Shown here piece by piece: positions 56,067 through 64,000 of a stretch of 64,000 bases of DNA. This DNA is from Mariniblastus fucicola. Lineage in GTDB: Bacteria > Planctomycetota > Planctomycetia > Pirellulales > Pirellulaceae. The notes beneath the pieces are model-generated. The model was not told where the DNA came from and did no database searches. It worked only from the letters and a program-made list of their open reading frames with translations. Location: positions 6,448,001 to 6,512,000 of the forward strand of contig NZ_CP042912.1 of assembly GCF_008087665.1 (NCBI RefSeq), given 5' to 3'. Position 1 is the stretch's first letter, and every line of letters starts with the position of its first letter. The position numbers and the translations under genes were made by a program.

Positions 56067-56462
56067 CTAGCCGGTCGGAGGCTCGCCCGGTGCAGGTGGA
56101 TTTCCTGACGGTGGTTCTCCAGTCGGCGGACCGTCGTTCAAACCAAGTTTGTCTGGAAAGTCTGAATCGGGGAGATCTTTCAACGCGTCGCGTACCTGAA
56201 TGATACGCAACACTAACGCGACTCGATTGTTGACGCGCAGTTTCGTATGAAGCCGCTCAAGGTAGTGTCTTACCGTGCGGACTTTGATGTTCATCTTCTC
56301 CGCGATTTCTTCGCGCGTGATGCCTTCGAAAAGCAAACGGCACACCTCCTGTTCTCGATCAGAAATCGCAAGGAGGTATGATATTTTTTTCCATTGAGTG
56401 TCGGTGATTAGATGGGTACCCGGCTCTTCCGACCATTGCCAGGCATCGTCTTGCAGATTCAA
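56067..56462 (-). CDS. LuxR-type HTH transcriptional regulator, paralogue 2
   Basis: 131 residues with a TTG start supported by AGGAA about seven bases upstream. The HTH is clear: AISDREQEVCRLLFEGITRE, EIAEKMNIKVRTVRHYLERL, KLRVNNRVALVLRI. N-terminal W-x-E-EPGTHLITDTQW is shared with the regulator at 28554-29045, so they are paralogues. The C-terminus is a Pro/Gly/Glu-rich tail (GPPTGEPPSGNPPAPGEPPT). No sensor domain. Confidence 0.82.
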   Translation of the reverse strand: MNLQDDAWQWSEEPGTHLITDTQWKKISYLLAISDREQEVCRLLFEGITREEIAEKMNIKVRTVRHYLERLHTKLRVNNRVALVLRIIQVRDALKDLPDSDFPDKLGLNDGPPTGEPPSGNPPAPGEPPTG

Positions 56463-56990
56463 AAGTTATTCCTCAGCCCGCCTACGCGGCAATTCCCAGT
56501 GTTGTCCATTGCCCATCCGTTATTAAAAGTATCCGTGGAACTAATTGCGTTCTACATCGGACATTCAGGCGCCAGTGCACTTCTGTACACAGTGCGTCAG
56601 ACAGTTAGCTAAATTCCCAGACTGCCTCTGTTGGCTCATTGGGTCGAAAATTATCAGTGTTGAAGGGCATATGCATTTGCGATATTGAGCTTCTGTAGAT
56701 GCCGAATCAGTCACAATGTTCACGGTCTAACAATCCATGTTTAAGTTCATGATTTTTCATTTTTCTACTTTTCGAGTGCCAGTTGACTTGGACTGGGCCA
56801 ATTGCCCCCGCCAATTGGCTGGCTTTGGATCGTCAGAATCGCCATTAAGAAAATGCTGAACGGTCGCAACGGATAGCCGATTCGGATTTCGGTTTCGCAT
56901 TCTTGGGGCTCGATTACGTTTCGACTCACCGACTCAATTCAGCCAAAACTCTGACTTGACATTCGGAGCAGACGGACTTAATCTCGGACT
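56463..56990. other. Gene-free stretch between LuxR-type gene and his leader
   Basis: About 530 bases. Contains an inverted repeat GCCAATTG-N7-CAATTGGC at 56797-56819 and the his promoter at its right end. No convincing gene. Confidence 0.5.
56956..56984 (+). promoter_or_regulatory. Probable his operon promoter
   Basis: TTGACA at 56956-56961 and TAATCT at 56979-56984 are spaced 17 bases. The predicted start site, six to seven bases beyond, falls at the ATG of the leader ORF (56991), so the leader message would be nearly leaderless; no Shine-Dalgarno precedes that ATG. Confidence 0.55.
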
Positions 56991-57044
56991 ATGAAATCCA
57001 CAGCAGCAAAATTCCACCACCATCATGCCCACCAATTGCGGTGA
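56991..57044 (+). CDS. hisL: his operon leader peptide (attenuation ORF)
   Basis: A 17-residue ORF reading MKSTAAKFHHHHAHQLR, with four consecutive His codons (CAC CAC CAT CAT) and one more two codons later. It lies directly upstream of an attenuator hairpin and hisG. By analogy with enterobacterial HisL, slow His-tRNA charging would stall ribosomes on the His run and change downstream RNA folding. It has no homologous domain, being recognised by composition and position. Confidence 0.85.
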   Translation: MKSTAAKFHHHHAHQLR

Positions 57045-57108
57045 CGGTTGTGGTTTTTCTCTTTAGCGAATCAAACGAAACGCTGACCACTCCGGTCGGC
57101 GTTTTTTT
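57029..57108 (+). terminator. his transcription attenuator
   Basis: Three overlapping structures. Stem 1:2 pairs 57029-57038 (CCACCAATTG) with 57045-57053 (CGGTTGTGG), one bulged C. The possible antiterminator 2:3 pairs GTGGTT (57050-57055) with GACCAC (57085-57090). The terminator 3:4 pairs ACGCTGACC (57080-57088) with GGTCGGCGT (57094-57102), with seven Ts from 57102. Stem 1 overlaps the His codons and the stop, so a stalled ribosome would free strand 2 to block the terminator. Confidence 0.78.
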
Positions 57109-57173
57109 GTGCCTTCGTGGTAACATGACGCCGGCCTTCACCAGGCTTTAAATCCAAACCACAAAGGAACGTC

Positions 57174-58049
57174 ATGTCTCCATCACGAGACCCCAATCTT
57201 GTAAGAATCGCTCTGCCCAAAGGTCGCATGTACGACGAGATCGTCGCGCTGCTTAAAGGGGCCGGTATCTCCATTCGCAATTCGATCCGTGGCTATCGCC
57301 CTACGATCTCACTTGCCAATTACGACGCAAAAATTCTCAAACCGCGCAATGTTATTAGCATGCTTGTCGCCGGAGCACGTGATGTTGGCTTCGCAGGTGC
57401 CGATTGGCTTGATGAGATGGGCGTTGAGCTACCGGAAATTATCGACACGGGACTCAACCCGGTTCGCCTGGTCGTCGCGGCTCCGCATCAGCTTCTCGAT
57501 AACGGTAAACTGCCGAATCGGCACCTCGTGATTGCGTCGGAGTACCCGAACATGGCCGAGCGTTGGATTAAAGACCAGGGCATCGACGCCGAGGTTCTAA
57601 CGACTTACGGTGCGACCGAAGTTTTTCCTCCCGAAGACGCGGATTTGATCATTGATAACACTGCGACCGGTTCGACGCTGCGTGCCAACGGTTTGCAAAT
57701 CATCGATGAAATTATGACCTCTTCGACGCGGCTCTATGCGTCCAAGGAAGCGATGGCGAATCCGGAAATCAAAGCTCAACTGGATGACCTGGGATTGCTC
57801 CTCGAAGCCGTCCTTCGCGCTCGCGGTCGAGTCATGATGGACCTGAACGTTGCGGCCGCTGACCTTGATGCGGTTTTGAAAGTCCTGCCAACGATGCGAC
57901 AGCCTACGATTTCTTCAATCAGCACTGATGGCTGGCACTCGGTTCGATCGGCGGTGCCGCGTAAGGAATTGGCCGAAGTCATTCCGAAACTGAAGGTCGC
58001 CGGCGCTTGCGATATCGTAACGACTTCAGCAGAACAGCTGATTCCGTAA
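57174..58049 (+). CDS. hisG: ATP phosphoribosyltransferase, long form
   Basis: 291 residues; AAAGGA precedes the ATG. First step of histidine synthesis, joining ATP and PRPP. Motifs: VRIALPKGRMYDEIVALLKG, ARDVGFAGADWLDEMGV, and the PRPP loop ADLIIDNTATGSTLRANGL. The C-terminal domain (about 215-291) is the ACT-like regulatory domain of the long form, so no HisZ partner is needed and His feedback is expected. Sits 65 bases after the attenuator T tract, so its expression should depend on readthrough. Confidence 0.96.
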   Translation: MSPSRDPNLVRIALPKGRMYDEIVALLKGAGISIRNSIRGYRPTISLANYDAKILKPRNVISMLVAGARDVGFAGADWLDEMGVELPEIIDTGLNPVRLVVAAPHQLLDNGKLPNRHLVIASEYPNMAERWIKDQGIDAEVLTTYGATEVFPPEDADLIIDNTATGSTLRANGLQIIDEIMTSSTRLYASKEAMANPEIKAQLDDLGLLLEAVLRARGRVMMDLNVAAADLDAVLKVLPTMRQPTISSISTDGWHSVRSAVPRKELAEVIPKLKVAGACDIVTTSAEQLIP

Positions 58050-58136: not shown

Positions 58137-59825
58137 ATGGCCTACAATCCACCCAAGTTCAAGAACGAAATCGACTTGCACCTGTCGAGCAACGAAAGCC
58201 GTTGTCCGATCGAAGACCTTGCAGCCGAATTGGCTGACCAGGCGGAAATCGTTTCCCGTTACCCGAACCACTTACCGCTCCAAAACGCAATCGGCTCATT
58301 CGTCGGCGTTGATCCGGGACGCATTGTGGTGACCGCGGGAGGCGACGATGCGATCGATCGTGTGATTCAACATTCGATCACGCCGGAGCGAAAGAAGATT
58401 GTTTGCCATCAGCCCTCGTTCGAGATGATTTCGATCTATGCCGGCATGTACGGAGCAACGATCGACGCGCCGGCCTGGCTGGGCGGCGATTTCCCGCTGG
58501 ACGATTTTCTGTCGCGGATCGATTCCGAAACAGCAATCGTGATCGTGGTGACTCCGAATAATCCGACCGGTGGACTGATTCTGGCTGACGAAATTCGAAA
58601 AATCGCCGACGCTGCGAAAGCCGCCGGGGCTCGACTGTTGGTCGATAATGCCTATGTCGAGTTCGCGGACTCGGATCCGACAGCTGAAATTGCCAGCCAC
58701 GACAACGTTTCGATCGTGCGAACGTTTTCCAAAGCGATCGGCCTGGCTGGAATGCGAGTCGGCTACTTGATTGCCAGCGACAAAGATTACGCGACGACGA
58801 TTCGCGATGCTTCCGGGCCGTATCCAGTTAGCTGCGTTTCGTTGGAGACATCTCGCCGCGCGATCGAGAATTTTCCTGATCGCATGCGTGCAAACGTTTC
58901 GCAAATCAAACAGATTCGCAGGCTGCTGGATGAAGTCATCACGAAATGCGGCGGCAAAACCATTCCCTCCCAAGGCAACTTTATCCTGGCCGAATTCGCT
59001 GACGCAGAGAAGGTTTGGGAGCAGCTTGCTGAGCAAGGAATCGCTGTGCGAATCTTTCCCAACAGCGATTTATTAAAAGGCAAATTGCGAATCACTTGCC
59101 CAACCAGCCAGGGCGACTTGGTTCGACTTGGTCGGTCGCTCGCCAAAGCATGCGATGCGGATGTCGATGTGATTCAGGACGTGGTCATGCCGGATCACTA
59201 CGCGGCCGAAGCAGGCTCTACCGACGCAACGCAATCGCCTGAGGAGAAATTCACTTCCTCCACCAACCGCGAAACCAAAGAAACCAACATCCAGATCGAG
59301 CTCGATCTCTACGGCACGGGCCAAACCGAAATTTCAACCGGCATTGGGTTCCTGGACCACATGCTGACCGCCCTCGCCTTCCACAGCAGCATGGATCTGA
59401 AGCTAATCTGCGACGGTGATTTGCACATCGACGACCACCACACCGCCGAAGACTGTGCACTCGCACTCGGCACCGCGATCGATGAAGCACTCGGACCGCG
59501 CCGTGGTATCAAACGTTTTGGTTTTGCCTACGCTCCGCTCGATGAGTCACTGGCTCGCACGGTGATCGACCTCAGCGGAAGACCGTGGCCAGAGATCCAC
59601 CTGGATCTGGAACGTGAAATGGTCGGAACGTGGGCCTGCGAGAACATCGTGCATTTTTTCCAGTCGTTTGCGATGACGTTAAAATGTTCGCTTCACGTCG
59701 ATGTTATTCGCGGCACCAACGATCACCACAAAGCCGAAGCCGCTTTCAAATCGCTGGCCAAAGCACTCCAGCAGGCGTTGACGCGAACCGAAGGCGCCGT
59801 GCCCAGCACCAAAGGCGTGCTGTAA
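58137..59825 (+). CDS. HisC-HisB fusion: histidinol-phosphate aminotransferase / imidazoleglycerol-phosphate dehydratase
   Basis: 562 residues. Residues 1-345 are a class I/II aminotransferase of HisC type: [20 protein letters not shown], and [15 protein letters not shown] with the PLP Lys199. A linker (about 346-375, [20 protein letters not shown]) leads to a complete HisB dehydratase at 376-562: [43 protein letters not shown] and [12 protein letters not shown] with its manganese-binding His residues. Catalyses steps 7 (dehydration) and 8 (transamination), which are consecutive, so channelling is possible. hisC-hisB adjacency is common, but a single chain is unusual. Confidence 0.93.
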
Positions 59826-59959
59826 GGTGGCATAGGCTTCCAGCCTGTGAACGCGATGGCTGCACTGGCTTAAGTCAATCTTCCATCAAGACCTCCCCGA
59901 TCCTAAAAACACAATCAACTACCCTTAACACAGATCACAGGCTGGAAGCCTATGCCACC
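59826..59959. repeat. Family-B inverted-repeat element between hisCB and hisH
   Basis: Left arm GGTGGCATAGGCTTCCAGCC begins one base after the hisCB stop; right arm (TCACAGGCTGGAAGCC then TATGCCACC) ends at 59959. The arms are nearly identical to those at 34739-34888. The right arm contains the hisH start codon (59952) with GGAAG five bases ahead. Confidence 0.87.
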
Positions 59960-60560
59960 GAAAATTCAAATCATCAACACCGGCGTCGCGAACATCCACT
60001 CGCTCCAGGCGTCCTTCGATCGCATCGAAGCACCGTGGGCTCTGACCGAAAGCGCCTCCGACATCGAATCCGCATCGCACGTCGTCCTTCCCGGAGTCGG
60101 CGCGTTCGGCGCTGCCGCGGCTGCACTGGACAAGCTCAACTTGCGCGACGCGATCCGTTCCCGGCTGGAACAACCCGACAAAACAACGCTCTGCATTTGC
60201 CTGGGATTACAACTTCTATGCAACGAAAGCGAAGAAAGCCCCGGGGCAAAAGGGCTGGGGGTCCTTGACGCCAAAATTGAGCGATTCTCGCAGGACGTCG
60301 CCGTCCCGCAGCTTGGCTGGAACGCGGTCGTGCCCCATGAAAGCTGTGAGACTCAAAAATTTCCGACCGGTGAAGCCTACTTCGCGAACTCCTTTCGACT
60401 CGGTTCGTCACCCGCCGGCTGGGACTACGCTACGACCGACTACGACGGCGGTTTCATCAGCAGCGTGTGGCGTGGCAAAACATTGGCCTGTCAGTTTCAC
60501 CCCGAACTATCGGGAAAATGGGGTCAGACCCTTTTAAAAGGCTGGTACGAAAATGCTTAA
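59952..60560 (+). CDS. hisH: Imidazole glycerol phosphate synthase, glutaminase subunit
   Basis: 202 residues. The class I glutaminase is complete: VLPGVGAFG, catalytic Cys in CICLGLQLL, and the His/Glu pair in CQFHPELSGKWG. It supplies ammonia from glutamine to HisF for ring closure. The start ATG lies within a family-B repeat arm; no later in-frame start would keep the first strand (KIQIINTGVANIHS). Overlaps hisF by eight bases, so the two subunits are translationally coupled. Confidence 0.95.
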   Translation: MPPKIQIINTGVANIHSLQASFDRIEAPWALTESASDIESASHVVLPGVGAFGAAAAALDKLNLRDAIRSRLEQPDKTTLCICLGLQLLCNESEESPGAKGLGVLDAKIERFSQDVAVPQLGWNAVVPHESCETQKFPTGEAYFANSFRLGSSPAGWDYATTDYDGGFISSVWRGKTLACQFHPELSGKWGQTLLKGWYENA

Positions 60561-61314
60561 GTCACGAATCATTCCATGCCTCGATGTTAACGATGGCCGC
60601 GTCGTCAAAGGCGTGAAATTTCAGAACCTGCGCGACGCCGGAAGTCCTGTCGAGCTGGCGGCTCACTACGAAGCCCAGGGCGCCGACGAACTGGTCGTGC
60701 TTGACGTTTCGGCGACTCGACAAGCCCGCCTGGCGATGCTTGAAACGATCGAAGAAGTTCGCAAACAGCTCTCGATTCCGCTGACCGTTGGCGGTGGAGT
60801 TGGATCGGTTGAAGACGCCGGCCGTTTGCTTGGTGCCGGCGCCGACAAGGTCAGTATCAACTCGGCGGCCGTTCGCAATCCGGACCTGATCAACGAAATG
60901 GCTGATCGATTCGGAGCCCAGTGCACGGTCGTGGCAGTCGATGCAAAACGCGACACCAGCCAGGAAAACTTTTGGCAAGTCATGACGCGGAGCGGGACTC
61001 AGGGTGAACCGCTTGATGCCGCGAAGTGGGCGGGCGAAGCACAACAACGCGGCGCCGGTGAGATTTTGCTGACCAGCTTCGATCGAGACGGAACTCGCAG
61101 CGGCTACGATCTGGAATTGATGGACGCCGTCGTCGCGGCTTGCAGTTTGCCCGTGATCGCATCCGGTGGAGCCGATTCGGTGCAACATATGGTGGAAGCT
61201 TTCGAGCACGGAGCCCACGCGGTCCTGGCGGCTTCCATTTTTCACGACAAGAACATGACCGTCGCGGACGTCAAACGCGATCTGGCGAAGATGGGCATCG
61301 AGGTCCGACAATGA
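60553..61314 (+). CDS. hisF: Imidazole glycerol phosphate synthase, cyclase subunit
   Basis: 253 residues, the usual length. TIM-barrel signatures: RIIPCLDVNDGRVVKGVKF (catalytic Asp11), TVGGGVGSVEDAGRLLGAGA, KVSINSAAV, and LLTSFDRDGTRSGYD carrying the second catalytic Asp; Phe replaces the usual Met in that motif. Forms the synthase with HisH, releasing IGP and AICAR. Its stop overlaps the next start (ATGA). Confidence 0.96.
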   Translation: MLKSRIIPCLDVNDGRVVKGVKFQNLRDAGSPVELAAHYEAQGADELVVLDVSATRQARLAMLETIEEVRKQLSIPLTVGGGVGSVEDAGRLLGAGADKVSINSAAVRNPDLINEMADRFGAQCTVVAVDAKRDTSQENFWQVMTRSGTQGEPLDAAKWAGEAQQRGAGEILLTSFDRDGTRSGYDLELMDAVVAACSLPVIASGGADSVQHMVEAFEHGAHAVLAASIFHDKNMTVADVKRDLAKMGIEVRQ

Positions 61315-62303: not shown

Positions 62304-63560
62304 ATGCTAAAAATCATACAAGCATCCGAATTCAACGCTCAATCATTTCCGCACTCGATCGATGGGGAGACTCTGGGTGTTGCCCAATCGATCGTCGATG
62401 ACGTCCGCGAAAATGGTGAAACAGCCATTCGAAAGTACGCTGAAAAATTCGGCGAACGAACTTCCGATCAACCACTCCTGATTCCGCGAGAAGAACTCGA
62501 CGCCGCGTTGGCTCGGATCTCAGCCAAAGATTCCGACCTGCTCCACCGAGTCAGTGCACGGATCCAAAAGTTCGCCGCCGCTCAATTGAACTGCCTCAGC
62601 GAGCTAACGACCGAAGTTCCTGGCGGCAAAGCGGGCCACACGATCGAACCCATCGAACACGCGGGCTGTTACGCTCCGGCGGGTCGCTATGCCCTGCCCT
62701 CGACCGTCATGATGACCGCCGTTACAGCTCGCGTCGCGGGTTGCAAACGAGTCACCGTGGCCTCGCCCAACCCGTCCGACATGATCCTTGCAACTGCAGC
62801 GGTTTCTGGCGCTGACAATGTATTGGCGGTCGGTGGAGCACACGCGATTTCTGCGATGGCTTACGGATTCGACGGGCTTGATCGATGCGACATGATCGCT
62901 GGCCCGGGTAACCGATTCGTCACCGCGGCGAAGAAGATTGTGCACGGCGACTGCGGCATCGACATGATTGCCGGGCCCTCAGAACTGGTTTTGGTCGCCG
63001 ACGAATCTGCCGATCCAGCGACCGTTGCCGCGGACTTACTCGGACAAGCCGAACATGACGATGACGCGAGGCCGTTTCTGATCACGACCAGCGCCGCCAT
63101 CGCCGACATGGTTTCTCTGGAAGTCGAAAAACAGGTGAAGGAGCTTCCTTCCTGCGAGACAGCTACGACATCGATCACCAACAACGGTGCTGCCATCGTT
63201 TGCGATTCGATTGATCAAGCCATCGACATTTGCAATCGCATCGCGCCGGAGCATCTTGAGCTTCACGTCGAAAACGCCGATTCGGTCGCGGCGCAAATCC
63301 GCAACGCCGGCTGCATTTTCATCGGCCACAATTCCGCGGAAGTCTTCGGCGACTACGGCGTTGGACCGAACCACACGCTGCCGACTTCCGGCACCGCTAG
63401 GTTTACTGCGGGACTGAACGTGTTCACTTTCCTTCGCGTGCGGACTTGGCTAAAGCTCGACGCAGCACCTCCTGAATTGGTTGCCGACACCGCGCGACTG
63501 GCGGAAATCGAAGGACTAATCGGACACCAACAATCGGCATTGCGACGGTCGACGGAATAG
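62304..63560 (+). CDS. hisD: Histidinol dehydrogenase
   Basis: 418 residues. Zinc- and NAD-dependent, last two steps of histidine synthesis. Visible: AGCYAPAGRYALPSTVMMTA, IAGPGNRFVTAAKKIVHGDC, GIDMIAGPSELVLVAD, DLLGQAEHDDDARP (Gln/His zinc ligands), APEHLEL and VGPNHTLPTSGTARF. Three-base gap after hisI. Last gene of the operon before the CRISPR array. hisA is not encoded in the window. Confidence 0.96.
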   Translation: MLKIIQASEFNAQSFPHSIDGETLGVAQSIVDDVRENGETAIRKYAEKFGERTSDQPLLIPREELDAALARISAKDSDLLHRVSARIQKFAAAQLNCLSELTTEVPGGKAGHTIEPIEHAGCYAPAGRYALPSTVMMTAVTARVAGCKRVTVASPNPSDMILATAAVSGADNVLAVGGAHAISAMAYGFDGLDRCDMIAGPGNRFVTAAKKIVHGDCGIDMIAGPSELVLVADESADPATVAADLLGQAEHDDDARPFLITTSAAIADMVSLEVEKQVKELPSCETATTSITNNGAAIVCDSIDQAIDICNRIAPEHLELHVENADSVAAQIRNAGCIFIGHNSAEVFGDYGVGPNHTLPTSGTARFTAGLNVFTFLRVRTWLKLDAAPPELVADTARLAEIEGLIGHQQSALRRSTE

Positions 63561-63615
63561 GTATTCGTGACGACAGTAAAAAACCTGATTCATTATCGTA
63601 TAGCTGGAAGCAGCA

Positions 63616-64000
63616 GTTTCAATCCACGCGTCCGTGAGGACGCGACAGGGGGAAAGAAAGTACGTCAGCGGCGGACGGGTGTTTCAATCCACGCGTCCGT
63701 GAGGACGCGACCGGCTCGAATGCATCGAACCGATAATCAGACGGCTGTTTCAATCCACGCGTCCGTGAGGACGCGACAGCCTGCGGAGCCACAAAGCTAC
63801 AATGAATGGCTTGTTTCAATCCACGCGTCCGTGAGGACGCGACTAGTGGCTATGACCGTGGGTTCTTCCCGGACGAGGTTTCAATCCACGCGTCCGTGAG
63901 GACGCGACGCAATGAGTAGGTTTGGTTACGCGATCGAACATGTTTCAATCCACGCGTCCGTGAGGACGCGACTTTGTTGATATCACCAGCAACAAAAGAG
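63616..64000 (-). CRISPR. Type I-C-like CRISPR array, truncated by window edge
   Basis: Six identical 31-base repeats start at 63616, 63681, 63747, 63813, 63878 and 63942, separated by spacers of 34, 35, 35, 34 and 33 bases; a sixth spacer is cut by the window end. In minus-strand orientation the repeat begins GTCGCGTCCTCACGGACGCG and ends GGATTGAAAC, the 3' tag typical of type I-C crRNA. Transcription should therefore run leftward, with leader and any cas genes beyond 64000. Spacer targets are unknown. Confidence 0.95.

Follow-up and report, generated by a model that had tools for sequence, protein, structure and literature searches.

A putative histidine-responsive, ribosome-mediated attenuator of the his operon in Mariniblastus fucicola and related leaders in several classes of Planctomycetota

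A short, histidine-rich open reading frame (ORF) and a terminator hairpin lie directly ahead of hisG in the planctomycete Mariniblastus fucicola, raising the question of whether its histidine operon is controlled by ribosome-mediated transcription attenuation, as are those of Escherichia coli and Salmonella. The locus was analysed within a window of 64,000 nucleotides (nucleotides 6448001–6512000 of the 6.57-Mb single-contig genome, RefSeq assembly GCF_008087665.1), whose own numbering is used throughout. An initial annotation, made from the sequence alone, had proposed such an attenuator in a ‘planctomycete-like’ genome; the lineage was correctly recognised, the organism belonging to the Pirellulaceae (Planctomycetota). 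We consider below the leader and its operon, the distribution of the leader among relatives, the RNA pairings on which attenuation would depend and the explanations that compete with it.

The leader and its operon

All elements listed by the initial annotation for the leader could be located (Table 1): four consecutive His codons plus a fifth within a 17-codon ORF, a 3:4 hairpin ending in seven Ts, and a position ahead of hisG, which starts 65 nt past the terminator. His-dense short ORFs occur seven times on the two strands of the window, and a terminator follows this leader alone. The his genes after the leader all run in one direction, in the order hisG, hisC-hisB fusion, hisH, hisF, hisIE and hisD. 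HisG is 29% identical to that of E. coli, and its best solved match by sequence is 2vd3.

Table 1. Features of the leader region and his operon, in window coordinates
Feature	Position	Strand	Basis or details
-35 box TTGACA	56956..56961	+	sequence
-10 box TAATCT	56979..56984	+	17 nt past the -35 box, 6 nt ahead of the leader ATG
Leader ORF	56991..57044	+	17 sense codons, MKSTAAKFHHHHAHQLR; ATG at 56991, stop TGA 57042-57044
Putative regulatory His codons 9-12 and 14	57015..57032	+	CAC CAC CAT CAT GCC CAC
1:2 pairing	57014..57053	+	57014-57028 with 57038-57053, approximate; minimum-energy fold
Predicted antiterminator 2:3	57046..57093	+	57046-57047/57092-57093, 57050-57055/57085-57090, 57065-57068/57081-57084
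Intrinsic terminator 3:4 (predicted)	57077..57108	+	12-pair stem, 5-nt loop, seven T; arms 57077-57088 / 57094-57105, loop 57089-57093, T run 57102-57108
Shine-Dalgarno-like AAAGGA of hisG	57163..57168	+	sequence
hisG, ATP phosphoribosyltransferase, long form with C-terminal domain	57174..58049	+	TIGR00070 and TIGR03455 over cut-off
hisC-hisB fusion (histidinol-phosphate transaminase and imidazoleglycerol-phosphate dehydratase)	58137..59825	+	
hisH	59952..60560	+	TIGR01855
hisF	60553..61314	+	TIGR00735
hisIE, ~130 additional N-terminal residues	61308..62300	+	
hisD	62304..63560	+	TIGR00069

Several features of the surroundings deserve mention in their own right. Fusion of hisC and hisB into one ORF was also seen in another member of the genus (G024). 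No hisA was seen within the operon, and the ~130 N-terminal residues of HisIE, which are without a Pfam or NCBIfam match, occupy the operon slot expected for it. Directly past hisD lies a CRISPR-like array (63613–64000) of six copies of ~31 nt (GTTTCAATCCACGCGTCCGTGAGGACGCGAC) at a spacing of 64–66 nt, which continues beyond the end of the window. Upstream of the attenuator, a LuxR-type helix-turn-helix protein with a GerE domain is encoded on the reverse strand (56067–56462), facing away.

A built-in scanner listed neither a promoter nor a forward-strand terminator at the leader; its promoter rule demands four of six matches per hexamer, of which TAATCT has three. The script applied to relatives favoured an overlapping CTTAAT as the -10 box at this locus, and the complete promoter was recognised by a pattern search. 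A search of the M. fucicola genome for the pattern TTGAC-N17-19-TANNNT-N5-8-ATG returned 12 places against 28 in a reversed control, so that leaderless promoters of this type are not enriched; the only His-rich short ORF among the 12 was the known leader, and a second attenuator was not found.

Distribution of the leader among relatives

Within the genus, 28 genomes were searched: HisG was 68–100% identical in 19, only 29–31% identical in five (G024, G027, G005, G011 and G026), and had no match in four. All 19 loci with the HisG type of the window carry a His-rich leader and a terminator. These leaders comprise 15–19 codons, 3–7 of them His, and a stop, with the terminator 59–91 nt further along; every hairpin has a run of 5–9 T behind it, with 29–239 nt between its end and hisG. 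In two of the five members with a distant HisG (G024 and G027), a similar His leader sits ahead of the hisC-hisB fusion rather than hisG, and counting G422, three genomes have a His leader before hisC-hisB or before hisC, hisB. In those two members, then, the leader has remained with the operon despite a change of hisG.

Beyond the genus, of 392 genomes sampled from the phylum, 31 were of other classes and had a HisG 37–59% identical to that of the window, and the upstream DNA of all 31 was examined. A His-rich leader was found in 25, of which 23 were recovered by script (ORFs of up to 30 codons) and two by eye (L107 and L109, with 41-codon ORFs). No leader was seen in the other six (L094, L096, L098, L108, L110 and L112), where the contigs of L098 and L110 offered 719 and 336 upstream bases, respectively; none was found upstream of three weaker HisG matches (L113–L115), nor did a His-rich short ORF occur in the final 1 kb ahead of hisG in another bacterium with a 34% identical HisG (L039). 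At locus L108 (G244), AAGGAG precedes a short ORF, MSKRGLHHWKRNEPLG, that includes two His codons and was not counted as a leader; a strong terminator follows this ORF, ahead of a 42% identical hisG. Within the class of the window, a search of 397 genomes with model R1 (E up to 1e-4) matched seven, including M. fucicola and a partial match in G068, and added two genomes with a His leader ahead of hisG: G985, of another family (HisG 48% identical to the window), and G097, of another genus in the same family (47%). Among the matches of this class search, L259, L260 and L261 proved on inspection to be unrelated. Fifteen further R1 places were inspected, of which six were attenuators and nine were not.

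In the 19 genus leaders, His accounted for 94 of 317 codons; in 23 leaders of other classes the figure was 133 of 502. Both CAC and CAT are present in every one of these 42 leaders, indicating that what has been kept is the encoded amino acid rather than a repeat in the DNA.

Promoter placement is also shared. The -35 hexamer reads TTGACA in 15 and TTGACC in four of the 19 genus loci, and its end lies 28–30 nt from the leader ATG in all of them, a spacing that predicts a transcription start at the ATG or a few bases off. None of AGGA, GGAG or GAGG occurs at -16 to -4 of the leader ATG in any genus locus, and a Shine-Dalgarno-like 4-mer is likewise absent ahead of the ATG in 22 of 23 other-class loci (the exception being L111, with GGAG); 16 of these 23 have TTGAC at the matching place, as judged by eye. 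The leader ORF is therefore probably translated from a leaderless RNA. This crude 4-mer test was positive for just four of the 19 genus hisG starts, and for that reason we draw no contrast between leader and hisG in their Shine-Dalgarno sequences.

None of 46 loci with another HisG type had a leader and terminator upstream (326 kb, both strands). The 46 loci contained 15 His-dense short ORFs, one with a terminator, and that one lay inside hisG (L030). A chance coincidence of ORF and terminator was rejected on these counts (one of seven His-dense ORFs in the window; none of the 46 control loci upstream). Presence with the HisG type of the window and absence from the other type imply that the leader is associated with a single HisG lineage. 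In a tree of 44 HisGs, which included 10 of the 31 other-class sequences and from which L077 was dropped because the coordinates used for it gave stops, the window type and the leader-bearing HisGs of other classes share a branch (support 99/97), apart from other types. Horizontal transfer of leader and operon from gammaproteobacteria was rejected on the 29% identity to E. coli HisG and on this grouping with planctomycetes of other classes. The distribution may stem from transfer among classes or from ancient inheritance followed by loss.

Competing pairings and alternative explanations

At the window locus itself, the 1:2 stem spans the end of the ORF in the minimum-energy fold, as the initial annotation had it, and adopts another register (56998–57004 with 57047–57053) when the fold begins at the ATG. 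The 2:3 alternative that it had proposed (57046–57068 with 57081–57093) also forms, with the ORF hidden up to the stalled ribosome and strand 4 absent. Only two of 200 shuffles folded as well as the leader region (z −2.52). The window antiterminator taken singly was not stronger than in dinucleotide shuffles (z +0.27, p 0.565), so that it is the relatives that lend it support.

MAFFT misaligned several genus leaders, and covariation was consequently counted on two subset alignments: A2, with 28 of the 42 leaders (8 of 19 from the genus and 20 of 23 from other classes), and A3, with 12 of the 19 genus leaders. Across the 28 leaders of A2, 97.6% of terminator cells were paired and both sides had changed in six of nine pairs, values that none of 500 shuffles reached. 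Conservation of His codons and compensatory changes in relatives, which the initial annotation had set in advance as one test on which its reading could fail, were both found. Among the 12 genus leaders of A3, the 2:3 pairs were nearly invariant and 92.3% formed, compared with 18–47% when slid. When strand 2 was paired with its own strand 3 or with that of other species, none of 5000 permutations did as well over all 42 leaders; by group, 1 of 5000 did so for the genus and 30 of 5000 for other classes, in permutations that ignore relatedness. The 1:2 stem is the weakest part: 73.1% of its cells were paired in the 12 genus leaders, with no covariation, and 263 of 5000 own-partner permutations did as well in the genus and none of 5000 in other classes (relatedness again ignored).

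When the leaders were folded around a ribosome halted at the middle His codon, the 5′ arm and loop of the terminator paired with upstream sequence in all 42, over 8–17 nt and at −11.6 to −43.0 kcal/mol. Placing the ribosome at the stop codon left this stretch with just −0.1 to −12.7 kcal/mol against −15.2 to −28.0 kcal/mol for the terminator, and the 5′ arm still paired upstream (at least 4 nt), weakly, in 14 of 19 genus and 16 of 23 other-class leaders. Relative to shuffled spacers, the antiterminator averaged a z of −1.37 for the genus and −2.43 for other classes, reaching p < 0.05 in only 6 of 19 and 15 of 23 leaders, respectively; E. coli hisL, put through the same stalled-ribosome test, gave a z of −2.85. 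Once strand 4 was present, 18 of 19 genus leaders kept the terminator as their minimum-energy fold behind the stalled ribosome, and antitermination would thus have to be kinetic.

Taken together, the leader, the terminator with its compensatory changes, the competing pairings and the position kept across genus, families and classes support the proposal of the initial annotation, and we infer that ribosome-mediated attenuation of the his operon explains them far better than any other reading. The locus very probably controls the his operon by transcription attenuation that a ribosome mediates in response to histidine. RNA polymerase would start at the leader ATG or a few bases away, as the promoter spacing suggests, and a ribosome would load at the 5′ end of the leaderless RNA and trail the polymerase. 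With charged His-tRNA plentiful, the ribosome would reach the stop codon at 57042 and cover strand 2 just behind it, whereupon the terminator at 57077–57108 would form and transcription would end. With charged His-tRNA scarce, the ribosome would stall at His codons 9–12 and leave strand 2 free; strand 2 would pair with the terminator's 5′ arm ahead of the synthesis of strand 4, and the polymerase would continue into hisG–hisD. The start site, translation, stalling, termination and histidine response in this scheme are all predictions from sequence.

Among the alternatives, we consider it improbable, if less so than the others, that a stalled ribosome senses His-tRNA but that attenuation acts at translation or through Rho and not at an intrinsic terminator. 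The T run is broken after the hairpin in six of the 23 other-class leaders (L093, L097, L099, L100, L104 and L105, which failed the terminator filter), as this explanation would allow; against it, the window and all 19 genus hairpins have their 5 to 9 T, and hairpins that end 29–239 nt ahead of hisG do not bury its ribosome-binding site. Still harder to credit is a functional His-rich micropeptide, for example one that binds metal, followed by an ordinary terminator. The steady length of the ORF (15–19 codons in the genus) and the recurrence of some C-terminal residues within groups would fit a functional peptide, but those residues coincide with RNA strand 2, non-His residues vary freely between groups, and the leaders precede his genes just as similarly built Thr-rich leaders precede thrS. 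Least plausible of all is a constitutive leader whose terminator sets basal expression and whose His run and pairings are coincidental, since, for all that the window antiterminator alone is non-significant, the leader is conserved (19 of 19 genus loci and 25 of 31 in other classes) and is absent from 46 control loci.

Relation to known attenuators and to transcription–translation coupling

A T-box (RF00230) or known riboswitch was rejected, Rfam giving no match in the window at gathering score. The His_leader family (RF00514) matched neither the window nor, at E up to 10, the segment 56600–57300, and it matched none of 20 other-class loci at E up to 0.5. The best sub-threshold Rfam match of the window was Thr_leader (RF00506), which scored 28.5 bits with an E value of 0.0034 over 701 nt, against a gathering score of 55; the corresponding match in L103 scored 31.8 bits. 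Thr_leader governs thr genes in enterobacteria, whereas the in-frame codons of the window leader encode His. We infer that the leader belongs to classical his attenuation by mechanism and not to the Rfam His_leader family. Like hisL of E. coli and Salmonella (RF00514), it combines a short ORF with a His run, competing pairings and an intrinsic terminator directly before hisG; unlike hisL, it has no RF00514 match and a probably leaderless ORF, and it differs from E. coli also in operon order, in the hisC-hisB fusion and in a HisG of only 29% identity.

In the accessible portions of the literature, leader-peptide attenuation is described for Proteobacteria, Actinobacteria and, later, some Firmicutes (PMC2965389, PMC9413887), and published his attenuators come from Proteobacteria and some Firmicutes (PMC9413887, PMC2965389, PMC3766115, PMC4833913). 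The Firmicutes cases, reported from the B. cereus group, Peptostreptococcaceae and Erysipelotrichales (PMC9413887, PMC2965389), resemble ours in having 3–5 consecutive His codons and attenuator and terminator hairpins before his genes, a likeness drawn from published descriptions and spanning a phylum boundary. In Actinobacteria, accessible excerpts describe a leaderless leader-peptide attenuator at ilvB of C. diphtheriae (PMC5784534), and mycobacterial poly-Cys leader ORFs appear in a reference title in PMC9031893; these share with our leader an amino-acid-specific attenuation and an ORF at the 5′ end of the RNA (both predicted here), and differ in amino acid and phylum. The excerpt of PMC4833913 counts Planctomycetes leader genes close to structural genes, in terms of reinitiation. 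Literature searches on planctomycetes with attenuation or leader peptides returned no described case, consistent with the initial annotation, which was aware of none there, although such searches, in which subscription journals are thinly covered, cannot prove absence.

The model built on 28 leaders also matches poly-Thr leaders before thrS, the gene for threonyl-tRNA synthetase, in three genomes: G313 (L158), G331 (L161) and G270 (L165). A search of 101 genomes of the class to which these belong, a class other than that of the window, supplied a further 70 thrS loci. A short ORF with at least five Thr in eight codons precedes thrS in 11 of them (L195, L209, L217, L219, L221, L222, L230, L233, L240, L241 and L242), or in 14 of 73 loci counting the first three, with MPRPTTTTTTTTETRPRG as an example; Thr codons are mixed, several of the ORFs are followed by a GC hairpin with a T run, and in five of the 70 loci a Thr-rich ORF is accompanied by a terminator that passed the filter. 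These Thr-rich ORFs and hairpins are likely to be threonine attenuators of threonyl-tRNA synthetase. The thrS of M. fucicola itself has no Thr-rich leader. What is new in these observations is the phylum, the probable leaderless start, the tie to one HisG lineage and the thrS cases. Comparative evidence supports leader-peptide attenuation in several classes of Planctomycetota, with thrS as a likely second target.

A ribosome-mediated attenuator works only with a ribosome close behind the polymerase, and its operation in this phylum would therefore require transcription–translation coupling. Gottshall et al. (2014) reportedly found transcription and translation to be spatially separated in the planctomycete Gemmata obscuriglobus. 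PMC6212462 cites that study, and PMC6554331 disputes it. The broader proposition, that Planctomycetota possess undescribed leaderless, ribosome-coupled attenuators (with poly-His ahead of hisG or hisC-hisB and poly-Thr ahead of thrS) and hence that transcription and translation are directly coupled in the phylum, we regard as evenly balanced between true and false. At least for the lineages that carry it, the conserved attenuator would offer a simple genetic test of the dispute over coupling; were the proposition true, ribosomes at these loci would trail the polymerase from the very start of the transcript, contrary to spatial separation.
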